From NCBI RefSeq assembly GCF_035474595.1, contig NZ_DATIND010000085.1:1-64000 (forward strand): DNA of 64,000 nt, read 5' to 3'. This document shows positions 3,012 through 22,371 of this stretch, in pieces. This DNA comes from Longimicrobium sp. GTDB lineage: Bacteria; Gemmatimonadota; Gemmatimonadetes; Longimicrobiales; Longimicrobiaceae. Under the pieces are notes generated by a model. The model searched no databases and was not told the DNA's origin. It worked only from the letters and a program-made list of their open reading frames with translations. The translations under genes were made by a program, and so were the position numbers. Positions within the stretch are counted from its first letter, which is position 1, and each line of letters begins with the position of its first letter.

Positions 3012-3040
3012 TTGCGGCGGAATGTGGGAGCGAATACGAT
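3012..3040 (+). promoter_or_regulatory. Candidate promoter of the small peptide gene
   Basis: TTGCGG (3012-3017), a 17-nt spacer and TACGAT (3035-3040) form a plausible housekeeping-sigma promoter 63 nt before the ATG at 3103. The spacing is optimal and the hexamers match the consensus only partly (3/6 and 4/6), so this is a candidate. Confidence 0.45.
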
Positions 3041-3102
3041 TGGATGCCGCCCGTTCGGTGCCACGGGCGGCTCGCTCGGAACCCGCGCAACGGAGGCGAA
3101 CG

Positions 3103-3255
3103 ATGGACAAGCTGAAGATGAACATCGAGGAGCTGAGCGTGGACACGTTCGATGTCGATCAGAAGAAGCAGGACGCGCTGCTCCACGGCGCCGTGAAGAC
3201 GTTCGATCCCACGAAGTGCGAGCCGCATTCGTGCGTGCCCACCTTCCCCTGCTGA
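3103..3255 (+). CDS. Orphan RiPP precursor peptide, pinensin/lanthipeptide-like
   Basis: A 50-aa peptide preceded by CGGAGGCG, a good ribosome binding site with about 6 nt spacing. The N-terminal half (MDKLKMNIEELSVDTFDV) has the K-h-K-h-x-h-E-x-L-x-V-x-(S/T)-F pattern of pinensin-type lanthipeptide leaders. A charged QKKQDALLHGAV link follows, then a short tail with all three cysteines: KCEPHSCVPTFPC. Ser and Thr residues (T33, T37, S43, T47) are available for dehydration and thioether formation. Known: such precursors are modified by lanthipeptide dehydratases and cyclases and are exported. No LanB/LanC/LanM, protease or dedicated transporter gene lies within the window, so the modifying enzymes would act in trans. 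Family membership is from leader resemblance only. The product and its activity are unknown. Confidence 0.75.
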   Translation: MDKLKMNIEELSVDTFDVDQKKQDALLHGAVKTFDPTKCEPHSCVPTFPC

Positions 3256-3405
3256 CCGCGCGGGATGGACGGAGACGCGAGGGGCGGCACCGGCCGCCTC
3301 TCGCGCTTTTTACGAAAGCATTACATCGGCGTCTGGTCCGCCCGCCCCGTTCGTGGGTACGATAGATCGAGACGGTTCCGCACACCCCTCGCGACCGGCA
3401 CCCCG

Positions 3406-22302: not shown

Positions 22303-22371
22303 GACGTCATCCTGAGGCCGACCACACTGTAACCAGTGTTTACACAAGAGATTGCAGGCCGAAGGATCTAT
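22303..22371 (+). repeat. Family F element, half copy
   Basis: GACGTCATCCTGAGGCCG to GCAGGCCGAAGGATCTAT, matching one arm of the 213-bp palindrome at 2722-2934. The second arm is missing here. It lies in the 489-nt gap between the esterase-like gene and the response regulator. Confidence 0.85.

Follow-up and report, generated by a model that had tools for sequence, protein, structure and literature searches.

The window, by which we mean the entire stretch of 64,000 nucleotides of Longimicrobium sp. DNA analyzed here, contains a short gene that likely encodes an orphan precursor of a class I (pinensin-type) lanthipeptide, modified in trans by a LanB/LanC enzyme set that is shared with other precursors. 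That the product of this gene is a lanthipeptide is an inference, for which neither mass spectrometry nor expression data are available.

Precursor Gene and Its Surroundings

The full translation of the gene is MDKLKMNIEELSVDTFDVDQKKQDALLHGAVKTFDPTKCEPHSCVPTFPC. Its features are listed below, where G000 denotes the genome of the window and G011 that of a sister species, and siblings are the other precursors of G000 with the same leader.

3103..3255, + strand: precursor peptide gene of 50 aa plus TGA; assigned from its translation and a syntenic ortholog with conserved core at G011:C199:5727-5876
3092..3096, + strand: Shine-Dalgarno-like GGAGG, 6 bases 5′ of the ATG, as read from the sequence
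3103..3189, + strand: putative leader, residues 1-29 (MDKLKMNIEELSVDTFDVDQKKQDALLHG), with the motif MxKLxLxxExLxVxSF common to the siblings; leave-one-out HMM E 6e-7
3190..3252, + strand: putative core, residues 30-50 (AVKTFDPTKCEPHSCVPTFPC), with 3 Cys and 4 Ser/Thr; last 16 residues the same in G011
3276..3305, + strand: intrinsic terminator hairpin followed by a T-tail (CTTTTT); 13-bp GC-rich stem, fold of -33.1 kcal/mol, z -3.3 versus shuffles

The boundary between leader and core, placed after residue 29, is inferred from the alignment with the siblings. A hairpin comparable to the terminator is also found 3′ of the ortholog in G011 (z -4.4).

The initial annotation had proposed a 50-aa peptide with a good ribosome binding site, which was borne out by the GGAGG motif and by the selected ortholog described below; the span given there began at 3012, but coding starts at 3103. 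A promoter of its own had also been suggested for the gene, yet a scan for the sigma-70 consensus revealed none. It may be that promoters in this phylum deviate from the consensus. On both sides the gene is flanked by ordinary genes, namely a B-family DNA polymerase gene in 5′ direction and a sensor kinase and a response regulator in 3′ direction, all of which were identified from their sequences and not by family scan. The statement that no modification enzymes are encoded nearby was confirmed, as no match for LanB, LanC, or LanM was found on contig C85, which begins at base 1 of the window. NCBIfam and Pfam scans of the window peptide itself yielded nothing useful.

Nested inverted repeats were observed at positions 2702-2954 and 22357-22371 of the window, the former between the polymerase gene and the precursor, with 49-nt arms that are 82% complementary and perfect inner arms of 21 nt. 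The arm GGCCGAAGGATCTAT was found again in 32 fetched loci at one to two copies per locus, in the manner of a dispersed extragenic palindrome. The place of these repeats is occupied in G011:C199 (L085 6135-8618) by an ORF of 828 codons with a weak pectate-lyase-like match, likewise flanked by the polymerase gene and the precursor. In addition, the window's contig carries another precursor of this leader family 9.6 kb past the window end (G000:C85:73646-73834, - strand), with the C-terminus STLSYLRPCFYTEQRTCTC.

Leader Family and Core Composition

The leader of the window peptide belongs to a family that is present throughout the genome. At least 183 distinct short precursors with this leader were found in G000 and at least 189 in G011 (15 bits or more), both counts being lower bounds since only listed places were collected. 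In G000 they are spread over 94 loci on 53 contigs, with 61 loci consisting of a single gene and the largest array comprising nine. Median values are 69 aa for the precursor length and six for the number of Cys beyond residue 28. The precursors are preceded by a Shine-Dalgarno-like motif in 179 of 183 cases and differ in their C-termini without exception (183 of 183). In one array of six precursors (L078, G000:C109), several members have in common a Cys-free tail (e.g., EIPAAMGEPQLPPK) behind the Cys-containing part, which is unusual for a core.

When the family was searched with a leader profile built from 36 leaders, ten genomes contained matches, and every one of the 150 scored candidates was accepted in G000 and likewise in G011. 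With an HMM from which the window peptide and its ortholog had been left out, the window peptide reached 28.4 bits (E 6e-7 among 11,195 ORFs); the best reversed ORF scored 6.8 bits against the full leader HMM. A degenerate DNA pattern for KLxLxxExLxVxSF had 114 matches in the genome, including the window gene, and 0 when read backwards.

The initial annotation had called the leader pinensin-type, which holds for the family more than for the window peptide: NF038180 (leader_pinensin) is matched with an E-value of 0.1 or lower by 26 of the 36 aligned sibling leaders, and 19 places in G000 exceed the cut-off of this model, whereas the window peptide gave no match up to E 10. Since most siblings match at the lenient threshold and the window peptide does not, the latter was filed as a relative of pinensin-type leaders and not as a formal member of NF038180. 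A further difference concerns the GTV-type motif (GTV(R/H)(G/A)), which is present in 161 of the 183 siblings and is replaced by LLHG in the window peptide. Forms bridging LLHG and GTV occur in two other genera (FLHA in G001, TVHG in G007).

What a class I precursor needs, a leader together with a C-terminal part containing Ser/Thr and Cys, is present in the window peptide (4 Ser/Thr and 3 Cys). The sibling cores consist of 15.2% Cys and 12.3% Thr, compared to 0.2% Cys in the leaders and to 0.3% Cys and 4.2% Thr in two neighboring proteins. Thr is strongly enriched directly before Cys (329 observed vs. 175 expected, z 14.4) and five residues before Cys (259 vs. 154, z 10.2), and is avoided two residues before Cys. 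Such a spacing is what repeated rings from Thr to the next Cys would need, and it is as expected for Thr-Cys thioether chemistry. By inference, the pair Ser43-Cys44 and the stretch Thr47-Phe-Pro-Cys50 of the window core fit rings of this kind.

Of the 21 family genomes, 10 contain the leaders, and exactly these 10 also contain LanB-C (PF14028), namely G000, G001, G004, G007, G009, G011, G013, G014, G015, and G017. For two random sets this coincidence would be expected in 1 of 352,716 cases (p about 3e-6), with shared ancestry being ignored. The number of leaders per genome varies between one in G013 and 150 or more.

As the cores are rich in Cys and an exporter is encoded together with precursors, the peptide might also be translated and mature by disulfide formation or metal binding, with the leader serving only as a targeting or export signal. 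We regard this as very unlikely, since it offers no reason for the enrichment of Thr at a fixed spacing from Cys and none for the exact co-occurrence of the leaders with a dehydratase domain.

Enzyme Locus

The enzymes required for a class I lanthipeptide, both LanB domains and LanC, are encoded in G000. Contig C23 carries one pinensin-like split class I locus comprising LanB-N, LanB-C, LanC, six precursors, an ABC exporter, and HlyD. One gene with a LanB-C domain (PF14028) and one class I LanC were found in the genome, the domains PF04738, PF14028, and PF05147 being located on C23. The zinc motifs WCHG and LCHG of LanC are kept. The only solved structure matched by LanB-N was 6ec7, a lantibiotic dehydratase domain protein, which we take to be TbtB, the split LanB of thiopeptides. 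LanB-N of C23 is cut by the contig end, and a second LanB-N, with 82.5% DNA identity to the former over the overlap, ends contig C4. Since both contigs stop within LanB-N, it is undecided whether C4 represents a second full enzyme set. The assembly has about 4% contamination.

An intact locus is present in G011 (C103), where LanB-N, LanB-C, and LanC are accompanied by ten precursors, ABC, and HlyD. Related enzyme and exporter loci occur in G007 and G017 as well; in G014, G001, G009, and G015, LanB/LanC were found without a close exporter match adjoining, on contigs that are partly cut. Diverged LanB loci were additionally seen at L136 3834 (G011:C98) and L140 14242 (G013:C30), the precursors of which consist of repeats such as CSNCSDCSNCSDC and show a different core style and a weaker leader match.

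Taken together, both checks requested in the initial annotation came out in its favor: the leader recurs many times in the genome in front of differing cores, and LanB/LanC-type enzymes are encoded elsewhere, with the same leaders adjoining on C23. Its proposal of an orphan precursor that depends on one enzyme set for many peptides is supported as well, with the window gene being one of about 180 and not an isolated oddity.

Apart from LanB/LanC, G000 encodes two LanM (C25, C136) and one RamC-like enzyme (C87), and one precursor of the leader family is located about 5 kb from the LanM of C25. Modification of the window peptide by one of these class II or RamC-like enzymes in place of LanB/LanC is nevertheless very unlikely. 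The presence and absence of the leader tracks LanB-C in 21 of 21 genomes, a comparison that did not include the distribution of LanM, and the leaders adjoin LanB/LanC in several genera. Moreover, a protein with a nitrile-hydratase-type leader adjoins the C25 LanM directly upstream and is therefore probably its own substrate. The C25 LanM gene (L067 6421-10371), which lies downstream of this nitrile-hydratase-alpha-like leader protein, has a low third-position GC (0.56) and was perhaps acquired from elsewhere.

Modification by the shared LanB/LanC set remains the preferred reading, with the other synthetases of the genome, the missing NF038180 match, and the missing GTV motif of the window peptide counting against it. 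The conserved N-terminal leader would dock on LanB-N and be recognized in trans by the split dehydratase encoded on another contig. Glutamylation and elimination by LanB-N and LanB-C would convert Thr/Ser of the core to dehydro residues, to which the LanC cyclase would add Cys39, Cys44, and Cys50, closing thioether rings. Export of the product would proceed through the ABC/HlyD pair of the enzyme locus, and an unidentified protease would remove the leader by cutting near the GTV(R/H)(G/A) motif. The same enzymes are proposed to serve at least 183 precursors spread over the genome. Dehydration, cyclization, and export in this scheme correspond to established class I lanthipeptide biochemistry. 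For the window peptide, its acceptance by the enzymes, its modification, ring pattern, cleavage site, protease, and export, and any activity or biological role are inferred in the absence of expression or mass data. The exporter of the C23 locus showed no C39 protease domain, so that removal of the leader is unexplained.

Conservation of the Core

The gene order of the window, consisting of polymerase gene, precursor, kinase, regulator, and permease, is shared by G011, in which 80% of the residues of the syntenic ortholog are the same, including all 16 C-terminal ones. Between the two species, the last 16 codons differ by 7 synonymous and 0 nonsynonymous changes, compared to 6 synonymous and 10 nonsynonymous differences in the first 34 codons. 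Since the core in G011 keeps all residues with only synonymous changes, the gene is real and its core under selection, which is therefore tighter on the core than on the leader. Coming from an alignment of two sequences only, this evidence may be called strong but not broad. A third ortholog was not found in 295 genomes of the class, which contained only the one of G011 and a weak match in G001, and a scan revealed no relatives of the window peptide among GTDB contigs. The nearest leaders are carried by peptides from G001 and G007 with cores ending in SCGHICP; the neighborhood of the window gene was not seen around these peptides, the G001 contig being short.

Looking beyond the window gene, the core was more alike than the leader in 65 of 92 pairs. 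These pairs were chosen by core similarity, a selection bias due to which they do not prove that cores are generally better conserved. Among 18 syntenic pairs with a single candidate, core identity was above that of the leader in only 8 and amounted to 0.6 or more in 10; several of these pairings are incorrect, as the same G011 gene entered more than one of them.

The window gene might also be a relic left by the precursor expansion, either decaying or silent, as it stands alone, lacks the GTV motif, and has no promoter detectable by the consensus scan. Given that the reading frame is intact, that the core has accumulated synonymous changes only, and that a ribosome site is present and the terminator hairpin is found in both species, we consider this explanation highly improbable. 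Short ORFs are common in GC-rich DNA, but a chance ORF merely resembling a leader is hardly compatible with the leave-one-out E-value and is ruled out by the conserved syntenic ortholog with its selected core.

Comparison With Known Systems

Beyond the single gene, the observations somewhat favor the existence of a class I diversity system in members of this Gemmatimonadota family, in which one split LanB/LanC set serves 180 or more scattered and individually maintained precursors per genome. Such a repertoire of lanthipeptide precursors would be the largest known, and many of its cores would be conserved between species and not drift freely. If true, combinatorial peptide cyclization would gain a further, independent enzyme set, and each strain would offer about 180 cores as a natural library. 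As some cores are common to different species, the function of such repertoires would become testable, and single peptides with selected cores, e.g., the window peptide beside a two-component sensor kinase, could be deleted or made for assay. For Longimicrobium terrae, genome reports list lanthipeptide clusters numbering three or four, and the passages searched mention no expansion of precursors (PMC7291104, PMC11271474). Cluster-based tools would miss such an expansion, since most precursors found here stand apart from the enzymes. No published precursor expansion was found for Gemmatimonadota or Longimicrobium in a search that mostly did not cover subscription journals.

The pinensins of Chitinophaga pinensis, whose LanB is split into two proteins (PMC7268733), resemble the present system in the leader pattern of the sibling precursors and in the combination of split glutamylation and elimination domains with LanC. 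They differ in that they come from a different phylum, the only named relatives here being Gemmatimonadetes MAGs, and in that the precursors described here are scattered by the hundred, with the window peptide missing NF038180. The match of LanB-N to 6ec7 constitutes a likeness to the split LanB of thiopeptides (TbtB); in contrast to the latter, the present enzymes occur with LanC and Cys/Thr-rich cores and not with thiopeptide enzymes.

The prochlorosins and synechococsins, class II lanthipeptides made by ProcM and SyncM, are similar in that a single promiscuous enzyme set faces many scattered precursors whose leader is shared and whose cores differ. The same arrangement is seen here, with at least 183 precursors at 94 loci on 53 contigs and only a single LanB-C and a single class I LanC found, which makes the present system a putative class I counterpart of the prochlorosins. 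Membership in the prochlorosins, defined by a ProcM-like LanM with CCG and by Nif11-type leaders, does not apply to the system of the window, which uses a class I split LanB/LanC instead of LanM, a LanC motif CHG instead of CCG, and a pinensin-like instead of a Nif11-type leader. Unlike in the prochlorosins, many cores are recognizably common to two species, albeit in a selection-biased sample. One paper presents the prochlorosins as the sole diversity-oriented lanthipeptide system in which a highly promiscuous synthetase acts on diverse cores (PMC10027976), and the largest precursor number found in the literature is the 79 of SyncM (PMC10783134), which the present count exceeds more than twofold. 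The individual parts are of known kinds; a class I system with more than 180 precursors is therefore new as far as the literature was searched.
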